Source: Agelas oroides
Taxonomy: Eukaryota; Porifera; Demospongiae; Agelasida; Agelasidae
Assembly: GCA_949130485.1 (NCBI GenBank)
Contig: OX422203.1
Span: 5,353,429 to 5,417,428, forward strand
DNA length: 64,000 nt
Reading direction: 5' to 3'
The notes beneath the pieces are model-generated. The model searched no databases, was not told where the DNA came from, and saw nothing but the letters and a program-made list of their open reading frames with translations. Position 1 is the first letter of the stretch. Each line of letters begins with the position of its first letter. The position numbers were made by a program, and so were the translations under genes. Of the stretch, positions 1 to 64,000 are shown one piece after another.

Positions 1-1962
1 CTCTACCACATTCCACCGGGGTTCTCATTCGCTCTACTTCGCTCTACTCCACTCTACCATGGCTCAACTACATTCTACCATGGCTTTACTATACATTTTA
101 CAATGGCCCTACTTCACTCTACATGACCTACTACATTCTACCGGGGTTCTAATTTGCTCTACTTCGCTCTACTACACTCTACCATGGCTCTACTACATTC
201 TTCCAAGCCTCTACTGAACTCTACATGACTCTACTACACTCTACCATACCTCTACTTGCCTCTACTGCATTCTACCATGGCTCTAGTTTGCTCTACTTGG
301 ATCTATTACACCCTACCATGGCTCTACTACACTCTCCCAAGGCTCTAGTTGACTCTACGTCAGTCTACTACATTCAAACATGGCTCTACTTGATTCACCT
401 ACATTCTACCGTCGCTCTACTTAGAGCTAATTGATTCTACTTCTCTCCACCATGGCTCTACTTGGCTCTACTTTGCTCACCTACTCTATACCATGACTCT
501 ACTATATTCTACGATGGCTCTCCTTGGCTATACATGACTCTACTACATTCTACCAGGGTTCAAATTGGCTCTACTTGGCTCTACTACACTCTACCATGGC
601 TCTACTACATTCTACCATGGCTCTACTTGACTCTACATGACTCTAATACATTCTACAGGGGTTCTAATTCGCTCTACTTGGCTCAACTACACTCTACCAT
701 GGCTCTACTACATTCTACCGTGGCTCTACTTGACTCTAATTGACTCTACTACATTCTACCATGGCTCTACTTGGCTCTACTTGGCTCTACTACACTCAAC
801 CATGGCTCTACTACATTCTACCATGTCTCTACTTGCCTCTACATGACTCTTCGACACTCTTCTACTGCTCTATTTGACTCTACTTGACTCTACTACATTC
901 TAGCATGGCTTTACTTAGCGCTAATTGACTCTACTACTCTCCACCATGGGTCTACTTGGCTCTACTTGGCTCAACATAACTATACCATGCCTCTACTACA
1001 TTCTACCATGCCTCTGCTTGGCCCTACATGACTCTACTATATTCTACCGGGGTTCTAATTTGCTCTACTTGGCTCTACTACACTCTACCATGGCTCTACT
1101 ACATTCTACCATGGCGCTTCACTCTACATGACTCTACTACATTCTACCGGGGTTCTAATTCGCTCTACTTAGCTCTACTACACTCTACCATGGCTCTACT
1201 TGGCTCTACTTTGCTCTACTACACTCTACCATGGCTCTACTACATTCTACCATTGCTCTACTTGGCTCTACTTGACTCTACTACACTCTACCAGGCTCTA
1301 CTTGGCTCTCCTTGCATCTACTACACCCTACCATGGCGCTACTACATTCTACAATGGCTCTACTTGACTCTACTTGACTCTACTACAGTCTACCATGGCT
1401 CTACTTGGCTCTACTTGGCTCTACTACACTCTACCATGGCTCTACTACACTCCGCCATGGCTCTACTACATTCTACCTTGGCTCTACTTGCCTCTACATG
1501 AGTCTACCACACTCTTCTACGGCTATACTTGACTCTACTTCACTCTACTACATTGTACCCTGGCTCTACTTAGCGCTAATTGACTCTACTTCTCTCCACC
1601 ATGGCTCTACATGGCTCTACTTGGCTCAACTACACTATACCATGCCTCTACTACATTCTACGATGGTTCTGCCTGGCACTCCTACATTCTACCGGGGTTC
1701 TAATTCGCTCTACTTGGCTCTACTACACTCTACCATGGCTCTACTACATTCTACCATGGCTCTACTTGATTGTGCTTGGCTCTACTACACTCTACCATGG
1801 CTCTACTACATTCTACCATGGCTCTACTTGACTCTACATCACTCTACTATATTCTACCATGGCTCCACATGACTCTACTTGACTCTACTACATTCTACCA
1901 TGGCTCTACTTAGCACTAATTGACTCTACTACTCTCCACCATGGCTCTACTTGGCTCTACTT

Positions 1963-2148
1963 GGCTCAACTACACTGTACCATGCCTCTACTACATTCTA
2001 CCATGGCTCTCCTTGACTCTCCTTGGCTCTACTACACTCTACCATGGCTCTACTTGGCTCAACTACACTGTACCATGCCTCTACTACATTCTACCATGGC
2101 TCTACTTGACTCTCCTTGGCTCTACTACACTCTACCATGGCTCTACCT
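1963..2148. repeat. Local 93-bp tandem duplication
   Basis: Two adjacent 93-bp copies begin at 1,963 and 2,056. Both carry the uncommon variant CACTGTACCATG where most copies read CACTATACCATG, and both carry CTCCTTGACTC or its close relative. Shared private variants show a recent local duplication rather than the background periodicity. The length equals nine monomers. Confidence 0.8.
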
Positions 2149-9700: not shown

Positions 9701-11206
9701 GCTAATTGACTCTACTACTCTCCACCATGGCTCTACTTGGCTCAACTTGGCTAAACTACACTATACCATGCCTCTACTACATTCTACGATGGCTCTACTT
9801 GGCTCTACATGACTCTACTATATTCTACCGGGGTTCTAATTTGCTCTACTTGGCTCTACTACACTCTACCATGGCTCTACTACATTCTACCATGGCGCTA
9901 CTTCACTCTACATGACTCTACTACATTCTACCGGTGTTCTAAATCACTCTACTTGGCTCTACTACACACTACCATGGCTCTACTTGGCTCTTCTTCACTC
10001 TACTACCCCCTACCATGGATTTACTACATTCTACCATTGCTCTACTTGACTCTACATGACTCTAATACATTCTACCGGGGTTTTCATTCGCTCTACTTGG
10101 CTCTACTACACTCTACCATGGCTCTACTACATTCTACCACGGCTCTACTTGACTCTACTTGACTCTACTACCCTCTACCACGGCTCTACTTGGCTCTACT
10201 TTTCTCTACTACACTCTACCATGGCTCTACTACATTCTACCATGGCTCTACTTCTCTCTATGATTCTAATACATTCTACCGTGCTTCTAATTCGCTCTAC
10301 TTGGCTCTACTACACTCTACCATGGCTCTACTACATTCTACCATGTCTCGAGCTACTTGCCTCTACATGACTCTATCACACTCTTCTATGGCTCTACTTG
10401 AATCTACTTGACTCTACTACATTCTACCATGGCTCTCCTTAGCGCTATTTGATTCTACTACTCTCCACCATGTCTCTACTTGGCTCCACTTGGCTCAACT
10501 ACACTATACCATACCTATACTACATTCTACGATGGCTCTACTTGGCTATACATGACTCTACTGCATTCTACCATGGTTCTTAATCGCTCTACTTGGCTCT
10601 ACTACACTGTACAATGGCTCAACTACATTCTACCATGGCTCTACTTGACTCTACATGACTTTAATACATTCTACCGGGGTTCTAATTCGCTCTACTTGGC
10701 TCTACTACACTCTACCATGGCTCTACTACATTCTACCATGGCTCTACTTGACTCTACTTGACTCTCCTTGACTCTACTACACTCTACCATGGCTCTACTT
10801 GGCTCTACTTGGCTCTACTACACTCTACCATGGCTCTACTACATTCTACCATGTCTCTACTTGCCTCTACATGACTCTACCACACTCTTCTACGGCTCTA
10901 CTTGACTCTACTTGACTCTACTTCATTCTACCATGGCTCTACTTAGCGGTAATTGACTCTACTACTCTCCACCATGGCTCTACTTGGCTATACTTGGCTC
11001 AACTACACTATACCATGCCTCTACTACGTTCTACGATTGCTCTACTTGCCTCTACTTGACTCTACTACACTCTACCATGGCTCTACTTGGCTCTACTTGG
11101 CTCTACTACACTCATGGCTCTACTGCATTCTACCATGTCTCTACTTGCGTCTATATGACTTTACCACACTCATCTATGGCTGTACTACACTCTGCCATGC
11201 CTCTAC
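6706..11206. repeat. Higher-order repeat copy Z (4,501 bp)
   Basis: Shortest version of the left-half higher-order repeat, measured from the anchor at 6,706 to its counterpart at 11,207. Module order is: ATTCCATCATGG module (6.76-7.5 kb), the 8.10-kb module, the 8.52-kb and 8.73-kb modules, the CCGCC-marker module at 8.91 kb, then 9.24, 9.71, 9.81, 10.06, 10.48 and 10.95 kb. Bases 8,101-8,912 match 12,275-13,080 at offsets of 4,174 then 4,164. Bases 8,913-9,915 match 25,259-26,262 at offset 16,346-16,347. Copy Z holds one CCGCC-marked module where copies B and C hold three and copy A holds four. It therefore looks like the simpler form from which the longer copies expanded, although deletion from a long form is also possible. 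Confidence 0.8.
6757..7507. repeat. Tandem triplication of a 286-bp unit
   Basis: Copies start at 6,757, 7,043 and 7,329, exactly 286 bp apart. Each contains the marker ATTCCATCATGG, then TCTATGACTGTAATACATTC, then CTCTAGTTGAATC and AGCGCTAATTGACTG in the first two. The three copies differ at one visible position: CTCCCATGG, CTGCCATGG and CTACCATGG in order. The third copy departs from the others near 7,485, where TTGCCTTTACATG and CACTCGTCTACGG appear. Higher-order copies A, B and C carry two of these units, so the third is specific to copy Z. Confidence 0.9.
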
Positions 11207-14200
11207 TTGACTCTACTTGACTCTACTACACTCTGCCATGGCTCTACTTGGCTCTACTTGGCTCTACTACGCTCTACCATGGCTCTACTACATTCCATCA
11301 CGGCTCTACTTGTCTCTATGACTGTAATACATTCTACCGGGGTTCTAATTCGCTCTACTTGGCTCTACTTCACTCTCCCATGGCTCTACTACATTCTACC
11401 ATGTCTCTACTTCCCCCTACATGACTCTACCACATTCTTCTACGGCTCTAGTTGAATCTACTTGACTCTACTACATTCTACCATGGCTCTACTTAGCGCT
11501 AATTGACTGTACTACACTCTACCATGGCTCTACTTGGCTCTACTTGGCTCTACTACACTCTACCATGGCTCTACTACATTCCATCATGGCTCTACTTGTC
11601 TCTATGACTGTAATACATTCTACCGGGGTTCTAATTCGCTCTACTTGGCTCTACTACACTCTACCATGGCTCTACTACATTCTACCATGTCTCTACTTGC
11701 CTCTACATGACTCTACCACACTTGTCTACGGCTCTACTTGACTCTACTACACTCTATTAAGCTCTACTTGGCTCTGCTTGGCTCTACTACTCCCTACCAT
11801 GGCTCTACTACATTTTACGATAGCTCTACATGACTCTTCATGACTCTTCTACATTCTACCGGAGTTCTAATTCGCTCTACTTCACTCTACTACACTCTAC
11901 CATGGCTCTACTACATTCTACCATGACTCTACTATACATTTTACAATCGCCCTACTTCACTCTACATGACTCTACTACATTCTACTGGGGTTCTAATTTG
12001 CTGTAATTCGCTCTACTACACTCTACCATGGCTCTACTACATTCTACCATGGCTCTACTTGACTCTACATGACTCTACTACATTCTACTATAGCTCTACT
12101 TGACTCTACTTGACTCTAGTACACTCTACGAATGCTCTACTTGGCTCTACTTGAGTCTACTACACACTACAATGCCTCTACTTCGTTCTATTACACGTTA
12201 CCATGATTCTACTACATTCCACCATGGCTATAATTGACTCTACATCACTCTACTACACTCTACCATAGCTCTACTTGACTCTACTTGGCTCTACTGCACT
12301 CTTCCATGGCTCTACTACATTCTTCCAAGGCTCTACTGAACTCTACATACCTCTACTTGCCTCTACTACATTCTACCATGGCTCTAGTTTGCTCTACTTG
12401 GATCTATTACACCATACCATGGCTCTACTACACTCTCCCAAGGCTCTACTTGACTCTACATCACTCTACTACATTCTACCATGGCTCTACTTGACTCTAC
12501 TTGACTCTACTGCATTCAACCATGGCTCTACTTGGCTCTACTTGGCTCTACTACACTCTAACATAGATCTACTACATTCTACCATGTCTCTACTTGCCTC
12601 TACATGACTCTACCACACTCTTCTACGGCTCTACTTGACTCTACTTCACTCTACTTCATTGTACCTTGGCTCTACTTAGCGCTAATTGACTCCACTACTC
12701 TCCACCATGGCTCTACTTGGCTCTAATTGGCTCAACTACAATATACCATCCGTCTACTACATTCTACGATGGCTCTACCTGGCTCTACATGAATCTACTA
12801 CATTCTACCGGGGTTCTATTTCGCTCCACTTGCCTCTACTACCCTCTACTACGGCTCTAGTACATTCTACCATAGCTCTACTTGACTCTACTTGACTCTA
12901 CTGCACTCTACCATGGCTCTATTTGGCTCTACATGGCTCTACTACACTCTACCATGGCTCTACTACATTGTACCATATCTCTACTTGCCTCTACATGACT
13001 CTACCACACTCTTCTACGGCTCTACTAGACTCAACTTGACTCTACTACATTCTTCCATGGCTCTACTTAGCGCTAATTGACTCTACTACTCTCCGCCATG
13101 ACTCTACTTGGCTCTACTTGGCTCTACTTGGCTCAACTACACTATACCATGCCTCTACTACATTCTACGATGGCTCTACTTGGCTATACATGACTCTACT
13201 ACATTCTACCGGGGATCTAATTTGCTCTACTACACTCTACCTTGGCTCTACTACATTCTACCATCGCTCTACTTGACTCTACATCACTCTAATACATTCT
13301 ACCAGGGTTCTAATTCGCTCTACTTGACTCTACTACACTTTACCATGGCTCTACTGCATTCTACCATGGCTCCACTTGACTCTACTTGACTCTACTACAC
13401 TCTGCCATGGCTCTACTTGGTTTAACTTGACTCTACTACACTCTACCAGGCTCTACTTGGCTCTCCTTGGCTCTACTACACCTTACCATGGCTCTACTAC
13501 ATTTTACTATGGCTCTCCGTGACTCTACATGACTCTACTACATTCTACCGGGGTTCTAATTCGCTCTACTTCGCTCTACTACACTCTACCATGGCTCAAC
13601 TACTTTCTACCATGGCTTTACTATACATTTTACAATGGCCCTTCAGTCTACATGACTCTACTACATTCTACAGGGGTTCTAATTTCCTCTACTTCCCTCT
13701 ACTACACTCTACCATGGCTCTACTACATTCTACCATGGCTCTACTTGACTCTACATGACTCTATTACATTCTACCATGGCTCTACTTGACTGTACTTGAC
13801 TCTAGTACACTCTACGATAGCTCTACTTGGCTCTACTTGACTCTACTACATTCTTCCATGGCTCTACCTACCGCAAATTGACTCTACTACTCTCCACCAT
13901 GGCTCTACTTGGCTCAACTTGGCTAAACTACACTATACCATGCCTCTACTACATTCTACGATGGCTCTACTTCGCTCTACATTACTCTACTATATTCTAC
14001 CGGGGTTCTAATTTGTTCTACTTGGCTCTACTGCACTCTACCATGGCTATACTACATTCTACCATGGCTCTGCTACATTCTACCATGGCGCTACTTCACT
14101 CTACATGACTCTACTACATTCTACCGGGGTTCTAAATCACTCTACTTGGCTCTACTACACTCTACCATGGCTCAACTTGGCTCTTCTTCACTCTTCTACA

Positions 14201-17200
14201 CTCTACCATGGCTCTACTACATTCTACCATTGCTCTACTTGACTCTACATGACTCTAATACATTCTACCGTGGTTTTCATTCGCTCTACTTGCCTCTACT
14301 ACACTCTACCATGGCTCTACTACATTCTACCATGGCTCTACTTGACTCTACTTGACTCTACTACACTCTACCATGGCTCTACTTGGCTCTACTTGGCTCT
14401 AGGACACTCTACCATGGCTCTACTACATTCTACCATGTCTCTACTTGCCTCTACATGACTCTACCACACTCTTCTACGGCTCTACTTGACTCTACTTGAC
14501 TCTACTACATTCTACCATGGCTCTACGTAGCGCTAATTGACTCTACTACTCTCCACCATGGTTCTACTTGGCTCTACTTGGCTCAACTACACTATACCAT
14601 GCGTCTACTACGTTCTACCATTCCTCTACTTGCCTCTAGTTGACTCTACTACACTCATGGCTCTACTACATTCCACCATGTCTTTACTTGCGTCTACATG
14701 ACTTTACCACACTTGTCTATGGCTACACTTGACTCTACTACACTCTGCCATGCCTCTACTTGACTCTACTTGACTCTACTACACCCTACCATGGCTCTAC
14801 TTGGCTGTACTTGCCTCTACTTCCCTCTACCACGGCTCTACTGCATTCTACCATGGCTCTACTTGACTCTACTTGACTCTACTGCACTCTACCATGGCTC
14901 TACTACATTGTACCATATCTCTACTTGCCTCTACATGACTCTACCACACTCTACTGGACTCTACTTCACTCTACTTCATTGTACCTTGGCTCTACTTAGC
15001 GCTAATTGACTCCACTACTCTCCACCATGGCTCTACTTGGCTCTAATTGGCTCAACTACAATATACCATCCGTCTACTACATTCTACGATGGCTCTACCT
15101 GGCTCTACATGAATCTACTACATTCTACCGGGGTTCTATTTCGCTCCACTTGCCTCTACTACCCTCTACTACGGCTCTAGTACATTCTACCATAGCTCTA
15201 CTTGACTCTACTTGACTCTACTGCACTCTACCATGGCTCTATTTGGCTCTACATGGCTCTACTACACTCTACCATGGCTCTACTACATTGTACCATATCT
15301 CTACTTGCCTCTACATGACTCTACCACACTCTTCTACGGCTCTACTAGACTCAACTTGACTCTACTACATTCTTCCATGGCTCTACTTAGCGCTAATTGA
15401 CTCTACTACTCTCCGCCATGACTCTACTTGGCTCTACTTGGCTCTACTTGGCTCAACTACACTATACCATGCCTCTACTACATTCTACGATGGCTCTACT
15501 TGGCTATACATGACTCTACTACATTCTACCGGGGATCTAATTTGCTCTACTACACTCTACCTTGGCTCTACTACATTCTACCATCGCTCTACTTGACTCT
15601 ACATCACTCTAATACATTCTACCAGGGTTCTAATTCGCTCTACTTGACTCTACTACACTTTACCATGGCTCTACTGCATTCTACCATGGCTCCACTTGAC
15701 TCTACTTGACTCTACTACACTCTGCCATGGCTCTACTTGGTTTAACTTGACTCTACTACACTCTACCAGGCTCTACTTGGCTCTCCTTGGCTCTACTACA
15801 CCTTACCATGGCTCTACTACATTTTACTATGGCTCTCCGTGACTCTACATGACTCTACTACATTCTACCGGGGTTCTAATTCGCTCTACTTCGCTCTACT
15901 ACACTCTACCATGGCTCAACTACTTTCTACCATGGCTTTACTATACATTTTACAATGGCCCTTCAGTCTACATGACTCTACTACATTCTACAGGGGTTCT
16001 AATTTCCTCTACTTCCCTCTACTACACTCTACCATGGCTCTACTACATTCTACCATGGCTCTACTTGACTCTACATGACTCTATTACATTCTACCATGGC
16101 TCTACTTGACTGTACTTGACTCTAGTACACTCTACGATAGCTCTACTTGGCTCTACTTGACTCTACTACATTCTTCCATGGCTCTACCTACCGCAAATTG
16201 ACTCTACTACTCTCCACCATGGCTCTACTTGGCTCAACTTGGCTAAACTACACTATACCATGCCTCTACTACATTCTACGATGGCTCTACTTCGCTCTAC
16301 ATTACTCTACTATATTCTACCGGGGTTCTAATTTGTTCTACTTGGCTCTACTGCACTCTACCATGGCTATACTACATTCTACCATGGCTCTGCTACATTC
16401 TACCATGGCGCTACTTCACTCTACATGACTCTACTACATTCTACCGGGGTTCTAAATCACTCTACTTGGCTCTACTACACTCTACCATGGCTCAACTTGG
16501 CTCTTCTTCACTCTTCTACACTCTACCATGGCTCTACTACATTCTACCATTGCTCTACTTGACTCTACATGACTCTAATACATTCTACCGTGGTTTTCAT
16601 TCGCTCTACTTGCCTCTACTACACTCTACCATGGCTCTACTACATTCTACCATGGCTCTACTTGACTCTACTTGACTCTACTACACTCTACCATGGCTCT
16701 ACTTGGCTCTACTTGGCTCTAGGACACTCTACCATGGCTCTACTACATTCTACCATGTCTCTACTTGCCTCTACATGACTCTACCACACTCTTCTACGGC
16801 TCTACTTGACTCTACTTGACTCTACTACATTCTACCATGGCTCTACGTAGCGCTAATTGACTCTACTACTCTCCACCATGGTTCTACTTGGCTCTACTTG
16901 GCTCAACTACACTATACCATGCGTCTACTACGTTCTACCATTCCTCTACTTGCCTCTAGTTGACTCTACTACACTCATGGCTCTACTACATTCCACCATG
17001 TCTTTACTTGCGTCTACATGACTTTACCACACTTGTCTATGGCTACACTTGACTCTACTACACTCTGCCATGCCTCTACTTGACTCTACTTGACTCTACT
17101 ACACCCTACCATGGCTCTACTTGGCTGTACTTGCCTCTACTTCCCTCTACCACGGCTCTACTGCATTCTACCATGGCTCTACTTGACTCTACTTGACTCT

Positions 17201-46318: not shown

Positions 46319-46377
46319 GGCTCTACTTGACTCTACTTGACTCTACTACATTCTAGCGTAGCTTTACTTACCGCTAA

Positions 46378-46896: not shown

Positions 46897-48628
46897 GTCT
46901 ACCACACACTTCTACGGCTCTACTTGACTCTACTAGACTCTGCCATGGCTCTACTTGGCTCTCCTTGGCTCTACTACACCCTACCATGGCTCTACTACAT
47001 TTTTCGATGGCTCTACGTGACTCTACATGACTCTACCACATTCCACCGGGGTTCTAATTCGCTCTACTTCGCTCTACTCCACTCTATGATGGCTCAACTA
47101 CATTCTACCATGGCTTTACTATACATTTTACAATGGCCCTACTTCACTCTACATGACCTACTACATTCTACCGGGGTTCTAATTTGCTCTACTTCGCTCT
47201 ACTACACTCTACCATGGCTCTACTACATCCTTCCAAGCCTCTACTGAACTCTACATGACTCTACTACACTCTACCATACCTCTACTTGCCTCTACTGCAT
47301 TCTACCATGGCTCTAGTTTGCTCTACTTGGATCTATTACACCCTACCATGGCTCTACTACACTCTCCCAAGGCTCTAGTTGACTCTACGTCACTCTACTA
47401 CATTCTACCATGACTCTACTTGATTCTCCTACATTCTACCATGGCTCTACTTAGCCCTAATTGATTCTACTTCTCTCCACCATGGCTCTACTTGGCTCTA
47501 CTTGGCTCTACTTGGCTCAACTACACTATACCATGACTCTACTATATTCTACGATGGCTCTCCTTGGCTATACATGACTCTACTACATTCTAGCAGGGTG
47601 CAAATTCGCTCTACTTGGCTCTACTACACTCTACCATGGCTCTACTACATTCTAGCATGGCTCTACTTGACTCTACATGACTCTAATACATTCTACAGGG
47701 GTTCTAATTCGCTCTACTTGGCTCAACTACACTCTACCATGGCTCTACTACATTCTACCGCGGCTCTACTTGACTCTACTTGACTCTACTACACTCATGG
47801 CTCTACTACATTCTACCATGTCTCTACTTGCGTCTACATGACTTTACCACACTCGTCTATTGCTCTACTTGACTCTACTACACTCTGCCATGGCTCTACT
47901 TGACTCTACTTGACTCTACTACACTCTACCATGGCTCTACTTGGCTCTACTTGGCTCTACTACACTCTACCATGGCTCTACTACATTCCATCATGGCTCT
48001 ACTTGTCTCTATGACTGTAATACATTCTACCGGGGTTCTAATTCGCTCTACTTGGATCTACAACACTCTCCCACGGCTCTACTACATTCTACCATGTCTC
48101 TACTTGCCTCTACATGACTCTACCACACTCTTCTACGGCTCTAGTTGAATCTACTTGACTCTACTACATTCTACCATGGCTCTACTTAGCGCTAATTGAC
48201 TGTACTACTCTCCACCATGGCTCTACTTGGCTCTACTTGGCTCAACTACACTATACCATGCCTCTACTACATTCTACGATGGCTCTAGTTGGCTATACAT
48301 GACTCTACTACATTCTACCATGGTTCTAATTCGCTCAACTTGGCTCTACTACACTGTAAAATGGCTCTACTACATTCTACCATGGCTCTACTTGACTCTA
48401 CATGACTCTAATACATTCTACCAGGGTTCTCATTCGCTCTACTACACTCTACCTTGGGTCTACTACATTCTACCATCGCTCTACTTGACTCTACATCACT
48501 CTAATACATTCTACCAGGGTTCTAATTCGCTCTACTTGACTCTACTACACTTTACCATGGCTCTACTACATTCTACCATGGCTCTACTTGACTCTACTTG
48601 ACTCTACTACACTCTACCATGGCTCTAC

Positions 48629-51600
48629 TTGGTTTTACTTGACTCTACTACACTCTACCAGGCTCTACTTGGCTCTCCTTGGCTCTACTACACCTTACCA
48701 TGGCTCTACTACATTTTACTATGGCTATCCGTGACTCTACATGACTCTACTACATTCTACCGGGGTTCTAATTCGCTCTACTTCGCTCTACTACACTCTA
48801 CCATGGCTCAACTACTTTCTACCATGACTTTACTATACATTTTACAATGGCTCTACTTGACTCTACATGACTCTACTACATTCTACCATCGCTCTACTTG
48901 ACTGTACTTGACTCTAGTACACTCTACGATAGCTCTACTTGGCTCTACTTGACTCTACTACATTCTACCATGGCTCTACTTACCACTAATTGACTCTACT
49001 ACTCTCCACCATGGCTCTACTTGGCTCAACTTGGCTAAACTACACTATACCATGCCTCTACTACATTCTACGATGGCTCTACTTGGCTCTACATGACTCT
49101 ACTACATTCTACCGGGGTTCTAAATCACTCTACTTGGCTCTACTACACTATACCATGGCTCTACTAGGCTCTTCTTTACTCTACTACACTCTACCATGGC
49201 TCTACTACATTCTGCCATGGCTCTACTTGACTCTACTTGACTCAACTACACTCTAACATGGCTCTATTTGGCTCTACTTGGCTCTACTACACTCTACCAT
49301 GGCTCTACTACATTCTACCATGTCTCTACTTGCCTCTACATGACTCTACCACACTCTTCTACGGCTCTACTTGACTCTACTTGACTCTACTACATTCTAC
49401 CATGGCTCTACGTAGCGCTAATTGACTCTACAACTCTCCACCATGGCTCTACTTGGCTCTACTTGGCTCAACTACACTATACCATGCCTCTACTACGTTC
49501 TACCATTGCTCTACTTGCCTCTACTTGACTCTACTACACTCTACCATGGCTCTACGTGGCTCTACTTGGCTCTACTACACTCATGGCTCTACTACATTCT
49601 ACCATGTCTCTACTTGCGTCTACATGACTTTACCACACTCGTCTATGGCTCTACTTGTCTCTACTACACTCTGCCATGCCTCTACTTGACTCTACTTGAC
49701 TCTACTACACCCTACCATGGCTCTACTTGGCTCTACTTGCCTCTACTACCCTCTGCCACGGCTCTACTACATTCTACCATGGCTCTACTTGACTCTACTT
49801 GACCCTACTGCACTCTACCATGGCTCTATTTGGCTCTACATGGCTCTACTACACTCTACCATGGCTCTACTACATTGTACCATATCTCTACTTGCCTCTA
49901 CATGACTCTACCACACTCTTCTACGGCTCTACTAGACTCAACTTGACTCTACTACATTCTTCCATGACTCTACTTAGCTCTAATTGACTCTACTACTCTC
50001 CGCCATGACTCTACTTGGCTCTACTTGGCTCAACTACACTATACCATGCCTCTACTACATTCTACGATGGCTCTACTTGGCTATACATGACTCTACTACA
50101 TTCTACCGGGGTTCTAATTCGCTCTACTACACTCTACCTTGGGTCTACTACATTCTACCATCGCTCTACTTGACTCTACATCACTCTAATACATTCTACC
50201 AGGGTTCTAATTCGCTCTACTTGACTCTACTACACTTTACCATGGCTCTACTACATTCTACCATGGCTCTACTTGACTCTACTTGACTCTACTACACTCT
50301 GCCATGGCTCTACTTGGTTTTACTTGACTCTACTACACTCTACCAGGCTCTACTTGGCTCTCCTTGGCTATACTACACCTTATCTTGCCTCTACTACATT
50401 TTACTATGGCTCTCCGTGACTCTACATGACTCTACTACATTCTACCGGGGTTCTAATTCGCTCTACTTCGCTCTACTACACTCTACCATGGCTCAACTAC
50501 TTTCTACCATGGCTTTACTGTACATTTTACAATGGCCCTACTTCAGTCTACATGACTCTACTACATTCTACCGGGGTTCTAATTCGCTCTACTTCGCTCT
50601 ACTACACTCTACCATGGCTCAACTACTTTCTACCATGACTTTACTATACATTTTACAATGGCTCTACTTGACTCTACATGACTCTACTACATTCTACCAT
50701 CGCTCTACTTGACTGTACTTGACTCAAGTGCACTCTACGATAGCTCTACTTGGCTCTACTTGACTCTACTACATTCTACCATGGCTCTACTTACCACTAA
50801 TTGACTCTACTACTCTCCACCATGGCTCTACTTGGCTCAACTTGGCTAAACTACACTATACCATGCCTCTACTACATTCTACGATGGCTCTACTTGGCTC
50901 TACATGACTCTACTACATTCTACCGGGGTTCTAAATCACTCTACTTGGCTCTACTACACTCTACCATGGCTCTACTAGGCTCTTCTTCACTCTACTACAC
51001 TCTACCATGGCTCTACTACATTCTGCCATGGCTCTACTTGACTCTACTTGACTCTACTTGACTCTACTACACTCTAACATGGCTCTACTTGGCTCTACTT
51101 GGCTCTACTACACTCTACCATGGCTCTACTACATTCTACCATGTCTCTACTTGCCTCTACATGACTCTACCACACTCTTCTACGGCTCTACTTGACTCTA
51201 CTTGACTCTACTACATTCTACCATGGCTCTACGTAGTGCTAATAGACTCTACAACTCTCCACCATGGCTGTACTTGGCTCTACTTGGCTCAACTACACTA
51301 TACCATGCCTCTACTACGTTCTACCATTGCTCTACTTGCCTCTACTTGACTCTACTACACTCTACCATGGCTCTACGTGGCTCTACTTGGCTCTACTACA
51401 CTCATGGCTCTACTACATTCTACCATGTCTCTACTTGCGTCTACATGACTTTACCACACTCGTCTATGGCTCTACTTGTCTCTACTACACTCTGCCATGC
51501 CTCTACTTGACTCTACTTGACTCTACTACACCCTACCATGGCTCTACTTGGCTCTACTTGCCTCTACTACCCTCTGCCACGGCTCTACTACATTCTACCA

Positions 51601-54600
51601 TGGCTCTACTTGACTCTACTTGACTCTACTGCACTCTACCATGGCTCTATTTGGCTCTACATGGCTCTACTACACTCTACCATGGCTCTACTACATTGTA
51701 CCATATCTCTACTTGCCTCTACATGACTCTACCACACTCTTCTACGGCTCTACTAGACTCAACTTGACTCTACTACATTCTTCCATGGCTCTACTTAGCT
51801 CTAATTGACTCTACTACTCTCTGCCATGACTCTACTTGGCTCTACTTGGCTCAACTACACTATACCATGCCTCTACTACATTCTACGATGGCTCTACTTG
51901 GCTATACATGACTCTACTACATTCTACCGGGGTTCTAATTCGCTCTACTACACTCTACCTTGGGTCTACTACATTCTACCATCGCTCTACTTGACTCTAC
52001 ATCACTCTAATACATTCTACCAGGGTTCTAATTCGCTCTACTTGACTCTACTACACTTTACCATGGCTCTACTACATTCTACCATGGCTCTACTTGACTC
52101 TACTTGACTCTACTACACTCTGCCATGGCTCTACTTGGTTTTACTTGACTCTACTACACTCTACCAGGCTCTACTTGGCTCTCCTTGGCTATACTACACC
52201 TTATCTTGCCTCTACTACATTTTACTATGGCTCTCCGTGACTCTACATGACTCTACTACATTCTACCGGGGTTCTAATTCGCTCTACTTCGCTCTACTAC
52301 ACTCTACCATGGCTCAACTACTTTCTACCATGGCTTTACTATACATTTTACAATGGCCCTACTTCAGTCTACATGACTCTACTACATTCTACCGGGGTTC
52401 TAATTTGCTCTACTTCCCTCTACTACACTCTACCATGGCTCTACTACATTCTACCATGGCTCTACTTGACTCTACATAACTCTACTACATTCTACCATGG
52501 CTCTACTTGACTGTACTTGACTCTAGTACACTCTACGATAGCTCTACTTGGCTCTACTTGACTCTACTACATTGTACCATGGCTATCCTTACCGCTAATT
52601 AACTCTACTACTCTCCACCATGGCTCTACTTGGCTCAACTTGGCTCAACTTGGCTAAACTACACTATGCCATTCCTCTACTACATTCTACGATGGCTCTA
52701 CTTGGCTCTACATGACTCTACTATATTCTACCGGGGTTCTAATTTGCTGTACTTGGCTCTACTACACTCTACCATGGCTCTACTACATTCTACCATGGCG
52801 CTACTTCACTCTACATGACTCTACTACATTCTACCGGGGTTCTAAATCACTCTACTTGGCTCTACTACACACTACCATGGCTCTACTTGGCTCTTCTTCA
52901 CTCTACTACACTCTACCATGGCTCTACTACATTCTTCCATTGCTCTACTTGACTCTTCATGACTCTAATACATTCTACCGGGGTTTTCATTCGCTATACT
53001 TGGCTTTACTATACTCTACCATGGCTCTACTACATTCTACTATGGCTCTACTTGACTCTACTTGACTCTACTACACTCTACCATGGCTCTACTTGGCTCT
53101 ACTTGGCTCTACTACACTCTACCATGGCACTACTACATTCTACCATGTCTCTACTTGCCTCATACATGAGTCTACCACACACTTCTACGGCTCTACTTGA
53201 CTCTACTAGACTCTGCCATGGCTCTACTTGGCTCTCTTTGGCTCTACTACACCCTACCATGGCTCTACTACATTTTTCGATGGCTCTACGTGACTCTACA
53301 TGACTCTACCACATTCCACCGGGGTTCTAATTCGCTCTACTTCGCTCTACTCCACTCTACCATGGCTCAACTATATTCTACCATGGCTTTACTATACATT
53401 TTACAATGGCCCTACTTCGCTCTACATGACCTACTACATTCTACCGGGGTTCTAATTTGCTCTACTTCGCTCTACTACACTCTACCATGGCTCTACTACA
53501 TTCTTCCAAGCCTCTACTGCACTCTACATGACTCTACTACACTCTACCATACCTCTACTTGCCTCTACTGCATTCTACCATGCCTCTAGTTTGCTCTACT
53601 TGGATCTATTACACCCTACCATGGCTGTACTACACTCTCCCAAGGCTCTAGTTGACTCTACGTCACTCTACTACATTCTAACATGGCTCTACTTGATTCT
53701 CCTACATTCTACCATGGCTCTACTTAGCGCTAATTGATTCTACATCTCTCTACCATGGCTCTACTTGGCTCTACTTGGCTCAACTACACTATACCATGAC
53801 TCTACTATATTCTACGTTGGCTCTTCTTGGCTATACATGATTCTACTACATTCTACCAGGGTTCAAATACGCTCTACTTGGCTCTACTACACTCTACCAT
53901 GGCTCTATTACATTCTACCATGGCTCTACTTGACTCTACATGACTCTAATACATTCTACAGGGGTTCTAATTCGCTCTACTTGGCTCAACTACACTCTGG
54001 CTCTACTACATTCTACCGCGGCTCTACTTGACTCTACTTGACTCTACTACATTCTACCATGGCTCTACTTGGCTCTACTTGGCTCTACTACACTCAACCA
54101 TGGCTCTACTACATTCTACCATGTCTCTACTTGCCTCTACATGACTCTTCCACACTCATCTACGGCTCTACTTGACTCTACTTGACTCTACTACATTCTA
54201 GCGTAGCTTTACTTACCGCTAATTGACTCTACTACTCTCCACCATGGGTCTACTTGGCTCTACTTGGCTCAACATAACTATACCATGCCTCTACTACATT
54301 CTACCATGGCTCTGCTTGGCCCTACGTGACTCTACTATATTCTACCGGGGTTCTAATTTGCTCTACTTGGCTCTACTACACTCTACCATGGCTCTACTAC
54401 ATTCTACCATGGCGCTACTTCACTCTACATGACTCTCCTACATTCTACCGGGGTTCTAAATCACTGTACTTGGCTCTACTACACTCTACCATGGCTCTAC
54501 TACATTCTACCATTGCTCTACTTGACTCTTCATGACTCTAATACATTCTACCGGGGTTTTCATTCGCTCTACTTGCCTCTACTACACTCTACCATGGCTC

Positions 54601-56473
54601 TACTACATTCTACCATGGCTCTACTTGACTCTACTTGACTCTACTACACTCTACCATGGCTCTACTTGGCTCTACTTGGCTCTACTACACTCTACCATGG
54701 CGCTACTACATTCTACCATGTCTCAGCTTGTCTCTACATGAGTCTACCACACACTTCTACGGCTCTACTTGACTCTACTAGACTCTGCCATGGCTCTACT
54801 TGGCTCTCCTTGGCTCTACTACACCCTACCATGGCTCTACTACATTTTTCGATGGCTCTACGTGACTCTACATGACTCTACCACATTCCACCGGGGTTCT
54901 AATTCGCTCTACTTCGCTCTACTCCACTCTATGATGGCTCAACTACATTCTACCATGGCTTTACTATACATTTTACAATGGCCCTACTTCACTCTACATG
55001 ACCTACTACATTCTACCGGGGTTCTAATTTGCTCTACTTCGCTCTACTACACTCTACCATGGCTCTACTACATCCTTCCAAGCCTCTACTGAACTCTACA
55101 TGACTCTACTACACTCTACCATACCTCTACTTGCCTCTACTGCATTCTACCATGGCTCTAGTTTGCTCTACTTGGATCTATTACACCCTACCATGGCTCT
55201 ACTACACTCTCCCAAGGCTCTAGTTGACTCTACGTCACTCTACTACATTCTACCATGACTCTACTTGATTCTCCTACATTCTACCATGGCTCTACTTAGC
55301 CCTAATTGATTCTACTTCTCTCCACCATGGCTCTACTTGGCTCTACTTGGCTCTACTTGGCTCAACTACACTATACCATGACTCTACTATATTCTACGAT
55401 GGCTCTCCTTGGCTATACATGACTCTACTACATTCTAGCAGGGTGCAAATTCGCTCTACTTGGCTCTACTACACTCTACCATGGCTCTACTACATTCTAC
55501 CATGGCTCTACTTGACTCTACATGACTCTAATACATTCTACAGGGGTTCTAATTCGCTCTACTTGGCTCAACTACACTCTACCATGGCTCTACTACATTC
55601 TACCGCGGCTCTACTTGACTCTACTTGACTCTACTACACTCATGGCTCTACTACATTCTACCATGTCTCTACTTGCGTCTACATGACTTTACCACACTCG
55701 TCTATTGCTCTACTTGACTCTACTACACTCTGCCATGGCTCTACTTGACTCTACTTGACTCTACTACACTCTACCATGGCTCTACTTGGCTCTACTTGGC
55801 TCTACTACACTCTACCATGGCTCTACTACATTCCATCATGGCTCTACTTGTCTCTATGACTGTAATACATTCTACCGGGGTTCTAATTCGCTCTACTTGG
55901 ATCTACAACACTCTCCCACGGCTCTACTACATTCTACCATGTCTCTACTTGCCTCTACATGACTCTACCACACTCTTCTACGGCTCTAGTTGAATCTACT
56001 TGACTCTACTACATTCTACCATGGCTCTACTTAGCGCTAATTGACTGTACTACTCTCCACCATGGCTCTACTTGGCTCTACTTGGCTCAACTACACTATA
56101 CCATGCCTCTACTACATTCTACGATGGCTCTAGTTGGCTATACATGACTCTACTACATTCTACCATGGTTCTAATTCGCTCAACTTGGCTCTACTACACT
56201 GTAAAATGGCTCTACTACATTCTACCATGGCTCTACTTGACTCTACATGACTCTAATACATTCTACCAGGGTTCTCATTCGCTCTACTACACTCTACCTT
56301 GGGTCTACTACATTCTACCATCGCTCTACTTGACTCTACATCACTCTAATACATTCTACCAGGGTTCTAATTCGCTCTACTTGACTCTACTACACTTTAC
56401 CATGGCTCTACTACATTCTACCATGGCTCTACTTGACTCTACTTGACTCTACTACACTCTACCATGGCTCTAC
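48629..56473. repeat. Higher-order repeat copy R (7,845 bp, with internal partial duplication)
   Basis: Anchor at 48,629 to its counterpart at 56,474. It equals copy Q minus the 284-bp local duplication plus an extra 1,811 bp: the stretch starting at 48,990 is repeated starting at 50,801. The second pass (50.6-53.9 kb) matches copy Q at offset 8,129 and carries the P/Q-type variant GACTCAAGTGCACTC (50,722). The first pass (48,917) has GACTCTAGTACACTC instead. The two passes therefore come from different parental copies. Confidence 0.86.
50560..50660. other. Unequal-exchange junction inside copy R
   Basis: The module CCGGGGTTCTAATTCGCTC, CTCAACTACTTTC appears twice in a row (50,450-50,510 and 50,570-50,630). 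The first time it is followed by TTACTGTACATTTTAC and GGCCCTACTTCAG. The second time it is followed by TTACTATACATTTTAC and GGCTCTACTTGAC, as at 42,525. The array thus steps back to an earlier point in the repeat at this place. Confidence 0.85.
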
Positions 56474-59400
56474 TTGGTTTTACTTGACTCTACTACACTC
56501 TACCAGGCTCTACTTGGCTCTCCTTGGCTCTACTACACCTTACCATGGCTCTACTACATTTTACTATGGCTATCCGTGACTCTACATGACTCTACTACAT
56601 TCTACCGGGGTTCTAATTCGCTCTACTTCGCTCTACTACACTCTACCATGGCTCAACTACTTTCTACCATGACTTTACTATACATTTTACAATGGCTCTA
56701 CTTGACTCTACATGACTCTACTACATTCTACCATCGCTCTACTTGACTGTACTTGACTCTAGTACACTCTACGATAGCTCTACTTGGCTCTACTTGACTC
56801 TACTACATTCTACCATGGCTCTACTTACCACTAATTGACTCTACTACTCTCCACCATGGCTCTACTTGGCTCAACTTGGCTAAACTACACTATACCATGC
56901 CTCTACTACATTCTACGATGGCTCTACTTGGCTCTACATGACTCTACTACATTCTACCGGGGTTCTAAATCACTCTACTTGGCTCTACTACACTATACCA
57001 TGGCTCTACTAGGCTCTTCTTTACTCTACTACACTCTACCATGGCTCTACTACATTCTGCCATGGCTCTACTTGACTCTACTTGACTCAACTACACTCTA
57101 ACATGGCTCTATTTGGCTCTACTTGGCTCTACTACACTCTACCATGGCTCTACTACATTCTACCATGTCTCTACTTGCCTCTACATGACTCTACCACACT
57201 CTTCTACGGCTCTACTTGACTCTACTTGACTCTACTACATTCTACCATGGCTCTACGTAGCGCTAATTGACTCTACAACTCTCCACCATGGCTCTACTTG
57301 GCTCTACTTGGCTCAACTACACTATACCATGCCTCTACTACGTTCTACCATTGCTCTACTTGCCTCTACTTGACTCTACTACACTCTACCATGGCTCTAC
57401 GTGGCTCTACTTGGCTCTACTACACTCATGGCTCTACTACATTCTACCATGTCTCTACTTGCGTCTACATGACTTTACCACACTCGTCTATGGCTCTACT
57501 TGTCTCTACTACACTCTGCCATGCCTCTACTTGACTCTACTTGACTCTACTACACCCTACCATGGCTCTACTTGGCTCTACTTGCCTCTACTACCCTCTG
57601 CCACGGCTCTACTACATTCTACCATGGCTCTACTTGACTCTACTTGACCCTACTGCACTCTACCATGGCTCTATTTGGCTCTACATGGCTCTACTACACT
57701 CTACCATGGCTCTACTACATTGTACCATATCTCTACTTGCCTCTACATGACTCTACCACACTCTTCTACGGCTCTACTAGACTCAACTTGACTCTACTAC
57801 ATTCTTCCATGACTCTACTTAGCTCTAATTGACTCTACTACTCTCCGCCATGACTCTACTTGGCTCTACTTGGCTCAACTACACTATACCATGCCTCTAC
57901 TACATTCTACGATGGCTCTACTTGGCTATACATGACTCTACTACATTCTACCGGGGTTCTAATTCGCTCTACTACACTCTACCTTGGGTCTACTACATTC
58001 TACCATCGCTCTACTTGACTCTACATCACTCTAATACATTCTACCAGGGTTCTAATTCGCTCTACTTGACTCTACTACACTTTACCATGGCTCTACTACA
58101 TTCTACCATGGCTCTACTTGACTCTACTTGACTCTACTACACTCTGCCATGGCTCTACTTGGTTTTACTTGACTCTACTACACTCTACCAGGCTCTACTT
58201 GGCTCTCCTTGGCTATACTACACCTTATCTTGCCTCTACTACATTTTACTATGGCTCTCCGTGACTCTACATGACTCTACTACATTCTACCGGGGTTCTA
58301 ATTCGCTCTACTTCGCTCTACTACACTCTACCATGGCTCAACTACTTTCTACCATGGCTTTACTGTACATTTTACAATGGCCCTACTTCAGTCTACATGA
58401 CTCTACTACATTCTACCGGGGTTCTAATTTGCTCTACTTCCCTCTACTACACTCTACCATGGCTCTACTACATTCTACCATGGCTCTTCTTGACTCTACA
58501 TAACTCTACTACATTCTACCATGGCTCTACTTGACTGTACTTGACTCTAGTACACTCTAAGATAGCTCTACTTGGCTCTACTTGACTCTACTACATTGTA
58601 CCATGGCTATCCTTACCGCTAATTAACTCTACTACTCTCCACCATGGCTCTACTTGGCTCAACTTGGCTCAACTTGGCTAAACTACACTATGCCATTCCT
58701 CTACTACATTCTACGATGGCTCTACTTGGCTCTACATGACTCTACTATATTCTACCGGGGTTCTAATTTGCTGTACTTGGCTCTACTACACTCTACCATG
58801 GCTCTACTACATTCTACCATGGCGCTACTTCACTCTACATGACTCTACTACATTCTACTGGGGTTCTAAATCACTCTACCTGGCTCTACTACACACTACC
58901 ATGGCTCTACTTGGCTCTTCTTCACTCTACTACACTCTACCATGGCTCTACTACATTCTTCCATTGCTCTACTTGACTCTTCATGACTCTAATACATTCT
59001 ACCGGGGTTTTCATTCGCTATACTTGGCTTTACTATACTCTACCATGGCTCTACTACATTCTACTATGGCTCTACTTGACTCTACTTGACTCTACTACAC
59101 TCTACCATGGCTGTACTTGGCTCTACTTGGCTCTACTACACTCTACCATGGCGCTACTACATTCTACCATGTCTCTACTTGCCTCATACATGAGTCTACC
59201 ACACACTTCTACGGCTCTACTTGACTCTACTAGACTCTGCCATGGCTCTACTTGGCTCTCTTTGGCTCTACTACACCCTACCATGGCTCTACTACATTTT
59301 TCGATGGCTCTACGTGGCTCTACATGACTCTACCACATTCCACCGGGGTTCTAATTCGCTCTACTTCGCTCTACTCCACTCTACCATGGCTCAACTATAT

Positions 59401-60350: not shown

Positions 60351-63300
60351 CTACATGACTCTACTATATTCTACCGAGGTTCTAATTTGCTCGACTTCGC
60401 TCTACTGCACTCTACCATGGCTCTACTACATTCTACCATGGCGCTACTTCACTCTACATGACTCTACTACATTCTACCGGGGTTCTAATTCGCTCTACTT
60501 GGCTCTACTACACTCTACCATGGCTCTACTTGGCTCTTCTTCACTCTACTACACTCTACCATGGCTCTACTACATTCTACCATTGCTCTACTTGAATCTA
60601 CACGACTCTAATACATTCTACCGGGGTTTTAATTCGCTCTACTTAGCTCTACTACACTCTACCATGGCTCTACTTGACTCTACTTGACTCTACTACACTC
60701 TACCAGGCTCTACTTGGATCTCATTGGCTCTACTACACCCTACCATGGCTCTACTACATTCTACAATGGCTCTACTTGACTCTACTTGACTCTACTACAC
60801 TCTACCATGGCTCTACTTGGCTCTACTTGGCTCTACTACACTCTACCATGGCTTTACTACACTCAACAATGGCTCTACTACATTCTACCTTGGCTCTACT
60901 TGCCTCTTCATGAGTCTACCACACTCTTCTACGGCTCTACTTGACTCTACTTGACTCTACTACATTGTACCCTGGCTCTACTTAGCGCTAATTGACTCTA
61001 CTTCTCTCCACCATGGCTCTACTTGGCTCTACTTCGCTCAACTACACTATACCATGCCTCTATTACATTTTACGATCGCTCTGTCTGGCACTACTACATT
61101 CTACCGGGGTTCTAATTCGCTCTACTTGGCTCTACTACACTCTACCATGGCTCTACTACATTCTATCATTGCTCTACTTGGCTCTACTTGACTCTACTGC
61201 ACTCTACCATGGCTCTAATTGGCTCTACTTGGCTATACTACACTCTACCATGGCTCTACTACATTGTACCATGTCTCTACTTGCCTCTACATGACTCTAC
61301 CACACTCTTCTACGGCTCTACTAGACTCAACTTGCCTCTACTACATTCTACCATGGCTCTACTTAGAGCTAATTGACTCTACTACTCTCTACCATGATTC
61401 TACTTGGCTCTACTTGGCTCAACTACACTATACCATGCTTCTACTACATTCTACCATGGCTCTACTTGGCTATACATGACTCTACTACATTCTACCTGGG
61501 TTCTAATTCGCTCTACTTGGCTCTACTACACTCTACCTTGGCTCTACTACATTCTACCATCGCTCTACTTGACTCTACATCACACTAATACATTCTACCA
61601 GGGTTCTAATTCGCTCTACTTGGCTCTACTACACTTTACCATGGCTCTACTACATTCTGCCATGGATCTACTTGACTCTACTTGACTCTACTACACTCTA
61701 CCATGGCTCTACTTGGCTCTACTACACTCTACCATGGCTCTACTTGACTCTACTACACTCTGACATGGCTCTACTTGGTTTTACTTGACTCTACTACACT
61801 CTACCAGGCTCTACTTGGATCTACTTGGCTCTACTACACCCTACCATGGCTCTACTACATTTTAGTATTGCTCTCCGTGACTCTACATCACTCTACTACA
61901 TTCTACCGGTGTTCTAATTCGCTCTACTTCGCTCTACTACACTCTACCATGGCTCTACTTGGCTCTACTTGGCTCTGCTACACTCTACCATGGCTTTACT
62001 ACATTCTACCATTGCTCTACTTGAATCTACACAACTCTAATACATTCTACCGGGATTTTAATTCGCTCCACTTGGCTCTACTACACTCTCCCATGGCTCT
62101 ACTACATTCTACCATGGCTCTACTTGACTCTACTTGACTCTACTACACTCTACCAGGCTCTACTTGGCTCTCCTTGGCTCTACTACACCCTACCATCGCT
62201 CTACTACATTCTACCGGGATTCTACTTTGCTCTACTTCGCTATACTACACTCTACCTTGGCTCAATTACATTCTACCAAGGATTTACTATACAATTTACA
62301 ATGGCCAAACTTCACTCTACATGACTCTACTACATTCTACTGGGGTTCTAATTTGCTCTACTTCGCTCTACTACACTCTACCATGGCTCTACTACATTCT
62401 ACCATGGCTCTGATTGCCTCTACATGACTCTACTACACTCTACCATGGCTCTACTTGGCTCTACTTGGCTCTACTGCACTCATGGCTCTACTACATTCTA
62501 CCATGTCTGTACTTGCATCTACATGACTTTACCACACTCGTCTATGGCTCTACTTGATTCTACTACACTCTGCCATGGCTCTACTTGACTCTACTTGACT
62601 CTACTACCCTCTACCATGGCTCTACTTGGCTCTATGACTGTAATACATTCTACCGGGGTTCTAATTCGCTCTACTTGGCTCTACTACACTCTCCCATGGC
62701 TATACTACATTCTACCATGTCTCTACTTGCCTCTACATGACTCTACAACACTCTTCTACGGCTCTAGTTGAATCTACTTGACTCTACTACATTCTACCAT
62801 GGCTCTACTTGGCTCTTCTTCACTCTACTACACTCTACCATGGCTCTACTACATTCTACCATTGCTCTACTTAGCGCTAATTGACTGTACTACTCTCCAC
62901 CATGGCTCTACTTGGCTCTACTTGGCTCAACTACACTATACGACGCCTCTACTACATTCTACGATGTCTCTAGTTGGCTATACATGACTCTACTACATTC
63001 TACCATGGTTCTAATTCGCTCTACTTGGCTCTACTACACTCTACCAGGCTCTACTTGGATCTACTTGGCTCTACTACACCCTACCATGGCTCTACTACAT
63101 TTTAGTATTGCTCTCCGTGACTCTACATCACTCTACTACATTCTACCGGTGTTCTAATTCGCTCTACTTGGCTCTACTACACTCTACCATGGCTCAACTA
63201 CACTCTACCATGGCTCTACTACATTCTACCGTAGCTCTACTTGACTCTACATGACTCTAATACATTCTACCGGGGTTCTAATTCGCTCTACTTGGCTCTA

Positions 63301-64000
63301 CTACACTCTACCATGGCTCAACTACATTCTACCATGGCTCTACTTGACTCTATTTGACTCTACTACACTCTACCATGGCTCTACTTGGCTCTCCTTGGCT
63401 CTACTACACTCTACCTTGGCTCTACTACATTCTACCATGTCTCTACTTGCCTCTACATGAGTCTACCACACTCTTCTACTGCTCTACTTGACTCTACTTG
63501 ACTCAACTACATTCTACCATAGCTCTACTTAGCGCTAATTGAATCTACTACTCTCCACCATGGCTCTACTTGGCTCTACTTGGCTCAACTACACTATACC
63601 ATGCCTCTACTACGTTCTACCATTGCTCTACTTGCCTCTACTTGACTCTACTACACTCTACCAAAGCTATACTTGGCTCTTCTTGGCTCTACTACACTCA
63701 TGGCTCTACTACATTCTGCCATGTGTCTACTTCCGTCTACATGACTTTACCACACTCGTCAATGGCTCTACTTGTCTCTACTACACTCTGCCATGGCTCT
63801 ACTTGAATCTACTTGACTCTACTACACTCTACCATGGCTCTACTTGGCTCTACTTGGCTCTACTACACTCTACCATGGCTCTAGTACATTCCATCATGGC
63901 TCTACTTGTCTCTATCACTGTAATAAATTCTACCGGGGTTCTAATTCGCTCTACTTGGCTCTACTACACTCTCCAAAGGCTCTACTACATTGTACCATGT
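60351..64000. repeat. Heterogeneous satellite tail
   Basis: Bases 60,355-61,500 resemble 1,028-1,800 and 37.2-38.4 kb. Bases 61,188-61,480 match 38,035-38,330 at offset 23,153. From about 62.4 kb, modules from several higher-order contexts are mixed: a CACTCATGG module (62.47 kb), a short TCTATGACTGTAATAC module (62.63 kb), a 62.9-kb relative of the empty-site module, and a 63.57-kb relative of 49.45 kb. The last bases carry ATTCCATCATGG as at 6.83 kb. No gene or array boundary was seen. Confidence 0.83.
61788..63168. repeat. Dispersed 140-bp duplicate at 1,240-bp offset
   Basis: Bases 61,788-61,928 recur at 63,028-63,168. Both carry variants I did not see elsewhere: TACATTTTAGTATTGCTC where other copies read TTTTACTATGGCTC, TACATCACTCTAC after CCGTGACTC, and ACCGGTGTTC. 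The sequence between them is different, so this was a short transfer (gene conversion or a small copy-paste exchange), not a simple tandem duplication. Confidence 0.82.

Follow-up and report, generated by a model that had tools for sequence, protein, structure and literature searches.

A satellite whose unit approaches one turn of the double helix raises the question whether it imposes an order on the nucleosomes wrapped in it. We addressed this in a stretch of 64,000 bp from the sponge Agelas oroides (contig OX422203.1, positions 5,353,429 to 5,417,428, hereafter the window), in which TA and GC steps had been reported to recur at 10.3 bp and which had been proposed to form a natural rotational-positioning array.

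Composition and growth of the array

All 64,000 bp of the window (1..64000, + strand) are satellite from end to end, an uninterrupted array of CTCTAC-anchored units of 10 and 11 bp with composite periods of 41 and 103 bp, as seen in self-identity (peaks at lag 41, 0.602, and lag 103, 0.583), segmentation and TA/GC steps. Segmentation of the whole window yields 6,219 units (4,334 of 10 bp, 1,785 of 11 bp and 100 others) with a mean length of 10.289 bp. This mean and the peak at lag 103 confirm the ten monomers in 103 bp of the original observation, while its 10.3-bp repeat stands as an average that comes from evenly mixed 10-mers and 11-mers and not from a single 10.3-bp monomer. The 1,784 steps between successive 11-mers span four units in 1,071 cases, two in 503, three in 101, five to eight in 99 and one in only 10, which gives 41+41+21 = 103 bp as the typical arrangement, and the 10/11 spacing is far more even than in shuffled order. 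The initial count of one TA per monomer is inexact, as the commonest unit, CTCTACTACA (1,024 of the 6,219), contains a pair of TA steps at a distance of 3 bp, the second of which is displaced from the common phase by roughly a quarter turn. AA makes up few of the steps (907 of 63,999).

Few stops are seen on the + strand when the common units are read by eye, and this gave rise to the idea that the array codes for a repetitive protein. Nothing else was found to support it and its probability is practically negligible, since no closed ORF of at least 250 aa exists in any frame of the 64 kb and the periods of 31, 41 and 103 bp are not multiples of 3.

Diagonal scans of the window returned 1,714 repeats, the longest 40 of which measure 0.96-4.6 kb and are 94-100% identical. 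Recent duplications, all on the + strand, comprise 46034-50584 with a copy 7,845 bp downstream (46034..58429 in total; 99.98% identity over 4,551 bp), 42418-45994 with a copy 8,129 bp downstream (42418..54123; 99.97% over 3,577 bp), 10241-13642 with a copy 16,933 bp downstream (10241..30575; 99.79% over 3,402 bp) and 16012-19248 with a copy 14,616 bp downstream (16012..33864; 99.69% over 3,237 bp). In sampled alignments (eight 2.5-kb window chunks against six genomic stretches, at most three alignments each), gaps of unit size, namely 10, 11, 20, 21, 31 and 41 bp, stand out; gaps of 1-2 bp are commoner. Elsewhere in the genome, a related satellite at C21:2.79 Mb has kept the 10/11 pattern with a mean of 10.27, and one 31-mer occurs on contigs C1, C2, C3, C6, C9, C19, C21 and C23 among the 100 of its 114 places that were listed, with several blocks each on C3 and C19.

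Helical phase and predicted nucleosome wrapping

The periodicity of about 10.3 bp is real. TA autocorrelation, the check initially suggested, peaks at 10, 21, 31 and 41 bp (3.67, 3.49, 3.71 and 4.78 times its mean), and all 16 dinucleotides have their top Fourier amplitude at 10.3 bp when ten periods are compared over the whole window. The phase is carried by TA (R 0.63) and GC (R 0.81). In 147-bp bins, TA coherence at 10.3 bp reaches 0.63, whereas five stretches of non-satellite DNA give 0.21-0.31; for WW the value is 0.29, and two of these five stretches give 0.14 and 0.12. Relative to TA, GC is enriched 5.76-fold at -4, 2.91-fold at +6 and 2.70-fold at +7, in agreement with the offsets of 4 bp before and 6 bp after that had been noted. 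The phase between TA and GC is -156 degrees at 10.3 bp (consistency 0.97), in line with the roughly opposite phase that had been claimed, and that between AA/TT/TA and GC is -169 degrees, near antiphase (consistency 0.95). Widom 601 and other SELEX-type positioning sequences likewise repeat TA at intervals of about 10 bp and place GC in the opposite phase; for this type, the antiphase is expected with a period of 10.1-10.3 bp across 147 bp, and the window shows it at 10.3 bp.

This phase is kept locally. It slips about every 645 bp, anchor coherence declines from 0.93 at 147 bp to 0.69 at 1.2 kb and 0.41 at 4.8 kb, and length variance over 200 units, slips included, reaches 75.9 vs. 54.2 for shuffled order. 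A single phase kept over kilobases is rejected.

Model scores depend on the parameter tables and the 601 sequence adopted here, and a high score is not equal to a measured affinity. In the dinucleotide nucleosome model, with non-satellite DNA of the same contig as background, 429 of 434 window bins exceed the 99th percentile and 400 the maximum, and the window mean is lower than that of 601 at a period of 10.1 and higher at 10.2 and 10.3. The signal is abolished by shuffling bases inside units and is lost in mononucleotide and dinucleotide controls too. In the C1 sample, a stretch only partly satellite, 28 of 67 bins exceed the same percentile. By the trinucleotide measure the window stands out only moderately: of its 435 bins, 245 exceed the 99th percentile of the background and 22 its maximum (8 of 68 bins exceed the percentile in the C2 array, 7 of 68 in the relative L019). 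Built arrays of 10.00-10.33 bp per unit score 6.7-12.3 at three model periods, compared with 1.4-6.1 at 10.5 bp, and fine-tuning of the unit to 10.3 bp is therefore unsupported.

The model predicts 5,766 local maxima in the window, spaced by 10 bp in 4,095 cases and by 11 bp in 1,601. These maxima differ in height by a median of 0.8 score units, against about 39 units for the rotational contrast. Such near-equal wells every 10-11 bp would leave the translational position free, and the single preferred translational position typical of 601 is not predicted for the window. For the first 20 kb of the window, a wedge table gives an intrinsic curvature of 66 degrees per 147 bp if its own twist is kept (shuffles 54, five non-satellite stretches 55-61) and of 128 degrees if a turn of 10.2 bp is imposed (shuffles 51-56, non-satellite stretches 50-64); since the excess appears only in the latter case, the effect needs the wrapped twist.

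Taken at the level of sequence, these results support a strong rotational-positioning character, which in the dinucleotide model is similar to that of 601 and far above composition-matched controls, and the satellite would probably fix which face of the DNA meets the histones. The proposed rotational-positioning array is upheld in its rotational character as modelled. For ordered nucleosomes over tens of kilobases there is no support, given the loss of coherence by 4.8 kb and the free translation in the model. It appears unlikely that the 10.3-bp length is a coincidence without chromatin effect, the nucleosomes of the array being no more ordered than elsewhere. Short tandem units do occur in many lengths, remodellers also set positioning in vivo, and a 192-bp satellite of the same contig is without signal (no bin beyond the background 99th percentile, out of 68 and 67), all of which would suit a coincidence. 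Against it, the TA and GC steps stand near antiphase in addition to being periodic, and DNA arranged in this way bends more readily around histones; moreover, the rotational contrast predicted for the window amounts to about 2.5-3 times the value in five stretches of non-satellite DNA.

Descent or selection as the source of the periodicity

We consider it fairly likely that the array is an ordinary, very abundant satellite with a local rotational setting and free sliding by 10-11 bp, whose periodicity is explained by descent and needs no selection. Its founder was probably a block of 41 bp in which three units of 10 bp and one of 11 bp carried CTCTAC as their common anchor, a pattern shared by the diverged relative. 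This block would have spread through kilobase-scale segmental duplication, as observed in the window, and through gains and losses of whole units, visible as unit-sized gaps and possibly caused by unequal exchange. With TA at nearly the same helical angle in each unit and GC about half a turn off, array DNA is expected to curve around histones so that the minor groove at TA faces inward, and according to the sequence models it would set nucleosome rotation locally and allow sliding in 10-11 bp steps. The periodicity itself would most likely be a property inherited from the founding repeat. The moderate trinucleotide result, the lower dinucleotide score of the C1 sample and the out-of-phase second TA of CTCTACTACA count against this explanation.

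That selection maintains the helical phase, with stably wrapped and uniformly oriented nucleosomes serving a role in centromere or heterochromatin, we regard as doubtful. It would account for the even spacing of 11-mers and for mean unit lengths of 10.27-10.34 in the C1, C2 and C21 samples and the diverged relative, a constancy that constraint would yield just as descent does. A 144-bp satellite of the same contig, apparently unrelated as judged by eye, is 10.3-bp periodic too (the background 99th percentile is exceeded by 40 of 68 bins in the trinucleotide measure and by 25 of 67 in the dinucleotide model, these bins being copies of one unit and not independent). Furthermore, considering 11-to-11 steps of two, three or four units with all inner units of 10 bp, 6 of 9 slots show stronger conservation of the core CTCTAC than of the flank, most clearly (4,1), 0.90 vs. 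0.76, (4,2), 0.93 vs. 0.79, and (3,0), 0.74 vs. 0.61, although the core, as the anchor of the segmentation, is favoured by it; in the other 3 slots, among them both of the two-unit spacing, core and flank are similar.

Other comparisons speak against such selection. In recent duplicates (10- and 11-bp units, homologous columns merged), variation is alike at the anchor TA (8 of 1,450 sites) and at its control, the second CTAC TA (3 of 482), and variable sites amount to 63 of 6,140 in the core vs. 56 of 4,381 in the flank (p = 0.26), both comparisons having low power. Small indels (≤6 bp) per 100 substitutions number 5.35-5.69 in the window family (two well-filled identity bands) and 4.3 in the relative L019 (80-90% identity, 31 of 41 alignments), vs. 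2.65 in the 144-bp satellite (80-90%, 41 of 65) and 0.55 in the 192-bp satellite (90-95%, 51 of 51), counts for which alignments outside the bands were dropped, alignments overlap and hence are not independent events, and controls differ in band. Purging of indels is unsupported, as those of the window family are no rarer than in the two other satellites of the contig. A 55-bp subtelomeric repeat, for which 32 of 51 alignments contained 64 substitutions and no gap, was too uniform as a control. The raised length variance over 200 units likewise argues against a maintained phase, and a pure decamer array reaches an equal or higher model score at 10.1-10.2 bp per turn, being lower at 10.3. Overall, the sequences give no clear sign of selection for helical phase. 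We give little credence to the broader idea that satellites of this genome (the window family, its relative and the 144-bp satellite) were repeatedly amplified for helical phase-lock, which would create rotational domains with all nucleosomes facing alike, 10-bp sliding and linkers quantised to one helical phase over a few nucleosomes.

If the rotational setting holds in cells, the array of several hundred kb, with rotation fixed and translation free, would offer a natural system in which to learn how DNA bending alone shapes chromatin and whether satellites expand through good wrapping; if not, it would illustrate clearly that a strong sequence signal can lack a chromatin effect.

Relation to known positioning sequences

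The window resembles 601 in TA/GC antiphase and in its score in the dinucleotide model. Whereas 601 is synthetic, a lone site of 147 bp with a single translational position, the window is a long natural array of near-equal sites.

The general idea is already in print, as 10-bp periodic centromeric satellites with a nucleosome rationale are described in two reports (PMC5844345, PMC6117089). Prodsat (AATAACATAG) and other 5- or 10-bp centromeric satellites of Drosophila melanogaster have a dinucleotide periodicity of about 10 bp that was proposed to favour nucleosome wrapping (PMC5844345); like the window, they consist of short tandem units of about one helical turn or half a turn. According to the same text they are AA-based and enriched in CENP-A ChIP, whereas in the window AA is rare, the period is borne by TA and GC instead of AA/TT, and a mix of 10 and 11 bp leads to 10.3. 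The putative centromere repeats of Drosophila miranda, of 21 bp (84 = 4 x 21) and 99 bp, share with the window units near whole helical turns and a nucleosome rationale, and a 10-bp AA/TT/AT periodicity is stated for the 99-bp motif (PMC6117089); however, they differ in sequence and are pericentromeric, while blocks of the window family occur several per contig on some contigs. Rice CentO is cited as a satellite reported to phase nucleosomes rotationally (PMC12321929, PMC8997354, PMC5844345) and is said to phase cenH3 nucleosomes translationally too, in contrast to the free translation predicted by the model for the window. Within the class of satellites with a helical dinucleotide periodicity of about 10 bp, the window is a long array with its period in WW and TA.

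Unit composition and helical periodicity

The satellite fills the whole window, which spans C21:5353429-5417428, from end to end. Anchor-based segmentation on the core CTCTAC delimited 6,219 units, of which 4,334 are 10 bp and 1,785 are 11 bp long while 100 have other lengths (mean 10.289 bp), so that the originally predicted 10.3-bp unit holds as an average of mixed 10- and 11-mers and not as a single length. The commonest units are CTCTACTACA (1,024 copies), CTCTACTTGG (505), CTCTACTTGA (467) and CTCTACCATGG (294). Successive 11-mers (n = 1,784 steps) lie four units apart in 1,071 cases, two in 503, three in 101, five to eight in 99 and one in 10, a pattern that gives mainly 21- and 41-bp blocks, plus a 103-bp period.

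At spacings of 10, 21, 31 and 41 bp, TA steps reach 3.5–4.8 times their mean density. GC is enriched around TA, 5.8-fold at 4 bp on its upstream side and 2.9- and 2.7-fold at 6 and 7 bp downstream. TA coherence at 10.3 bp (147-bp bins) reaches 0.63, vs. 0.21–0.31 in five non-satellite stretches of the contig. These measures uphold the original prediction of a 10.3-bp TA/GC periodicity, but not its description of a single TA per unit, since a further TA, out of phase with the first, is present in many units. AA/TT/TA steps are offset from GC by −169 degrees (consistency 0.95); for the Widom 601 positioning sequence the offset is −179 degrees (at 10.2) or 167 degrees (at 10.3).

Many centromeric satellites have a 10-bp dinucleotide periodicity, for which a wrapping advantage has been proposed (PMC12321929, PMC8997354, PMC5844345, PMC6117089). 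The window satellite belongs to this already-described class of satellites with helical periodicity. It differs from the Drosophila satellites in being TA/GC-based, AA-poor and a mixture of 10- and 11-bp units.

Predicted nucleosome positioning

In a dinucleotide model of the van der Heijden type, whose scores stand for a predicted bending preference rather than a measured affinity, the window obtained mean best scores per 147 bp of 8.5, 9.5 and 9.8 at periods of 10.1, 10.2 and 10.3, as compared to −2.8 to −4.8 for the five non-satellite stretches. Shuffling bases within units lowered the score to about −2.9, whereas shuffling whole units caused only a small loss (7.8–8.4); the model signal thus resides inside the unit and not in the order of units. 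The 601 sequence, placed in one random flank, peaked at 9.8, 5.6 and 3.7 at the same three periods. Compared with 335 background bins at a period of 10.2 bp, 429 of 434 bins of the window lay above the 99th percentile and 400 above the maximum. The window stands out less in a trinucleotide measure, likewise a predictor of bending preference: relative to 340 background bins, 245 of 435 exceed the 99th percentile and 22 the maximum. An array on contig C2 and a diverged relative of the satellite (L019) had 56/67 and 64/67 bins above the background 99th percentile in the dinucleotide model, and 8/68 and 7/68 in the trinucleotide measure.

The model predicts wells at intervals of 10 or 11 bp, nearly equal in height (median step-to-step difference 0.8, with a rotational contrast of about 39 at the same model period). 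According to the model, the array should set the rotation of nucleosomes while their translation stays free. The phase is broken by the 100 odd-length units, on average every 645 bp. Anchor coherence falls from 0.93 (147 bp) to 0.69 (1.2 kb) and 0.41 (4.8 kb), vs. 0.88, 0.47 and 0.25 with unit order shuffled, and the length variance of 200 units is 4.1 vs. 48.5 shuffled for 10- and 11-mers only and 75.9 vs. 54.2 for all units. Together, coherence decay and length variances indicate that local spacing is very even, yet that no single phase extends across tens of kilobases. A natural rotational-positioning array, as originally proposed, is plausible from the sequence models, but the order over tens of kilobases attached to it is not supported, given these slips and the low coherence at 4.8 kb, and neither is unusual stability.

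Array growth and possible selection on phase

The 40 longest diagonal repeats in the window (0.96–4.6 kb, 94–100% identity) show the mode of array growth. Among duplicates of at least 95% identity, where numbers are small, 8 of 1,450 anchor TA sites and 3 of 482 second CTAC TA sites were variable, as were 63/6,140 core and 56/4,381 flank sites (p = 0.26). Core conservation exceeded that of the flank in six of nine slots between 11-mers (most clearly 0.90 vs. 0.76, 0.93 vs. 0.79 and 0.74 vs. 0.61), the exceptions being the two slots of the two-unit spacing and a single three-unit-spacing slot; as the core itself served to delimit the units, this comparison is biased toward it. Small indels per 100 substitutions amounted to 5.35 in the 70–80% identity band of the window family (109 alignments), 5.69 at 80–90% (34 alignments) and 4.12 in a third band with one alignment only, to 4.3 in the diverged relative, and to 2.65 and 0.55 in a 144-bp and a 192-bp satellite of the same contig. 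Constructed arrays scored well at 10.00–10.33 bp per unit and dropped at 10.5. These results can be explained without selection for phase, although they are also compatible with it; in the window family and the comparison satellites, duplicate variation, slots, indels and constructed arrays gave no clear evidence of selection on phase.

Array extent, related satellites and other contigs

The array starts near C21:5,274,400 (C21 is contig OX422203.1), at a short strand switch marked by an inverted satellite block (positions 2327–3322 of L014, C21:5273429-5283428). On the right, satellite is still present at C21:5,657,428 and none is found at 5,727,429. Its length, estimated by sampling, is about 380–450 kb: the window, the edge stretch L014 and 10/10 other stretches sampled between these two ends are all satellite. 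The 27-mer CTCTACTACAYTCTACCATGGCTCTAC occurs 19,454 times in the 259-Mb genome (141 contigs) and 303 times in the window, and extrapolation from this density gives a rough 4 Mb for the family. A 31-mer variant was found at 114 places, with C1, C2, C3, C6, C9, C19, C21 and C23 among the 100 matches listed.

The diverged relative (L019 1-10000, C21:2793429-2803428, 2.79 Mb) is GC-richer, has a 41-bp unit and lies on the strand opposite to the window satellite; it shares the 10/11 unit pattern, with a TA coherence of 0.88 at 10.3 bp. Words taken from its consensus are spread over at least 13 contigs: a 73-mer at 204 places (C2, C4, C5, C7, C8, C10, C11, C12, C13 and C15 among the 100 matches listed) and a longer 91-mer at 17, adding C17, C19 and C21.

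The 144-bp satellite (72-bp half period; L018 1-10000, C21:4073429-4083428), by eye apparently unrelated to the window satellite, also has a 10.3-bp periodicity. Helical periodicity is absent from the 192-bp satellite (L028 1-10000, C21:6687429-6697428), whose alignments are 92–95% identical among the rows listed. The contig start (L020 1-10000, C21:1-10000) carries (CCCTAA)n telomere repeats of the TTAGGG type, followed by a 55-bp subtelomeric repeat.

The mitochondrial contig C141 requires TGA to be read as tryptophan, and its cox1 lies in two pieces 1.2 kb apart (L033 and L034, C141:12476-18050), a split probably caused by an intron. A second cox1-family match (L035, C107:14676-16816), on a 16.8-kb contig, differs from the mitochondrial cox1 in having no internal stop; it perhaps derives from an associated microbe.
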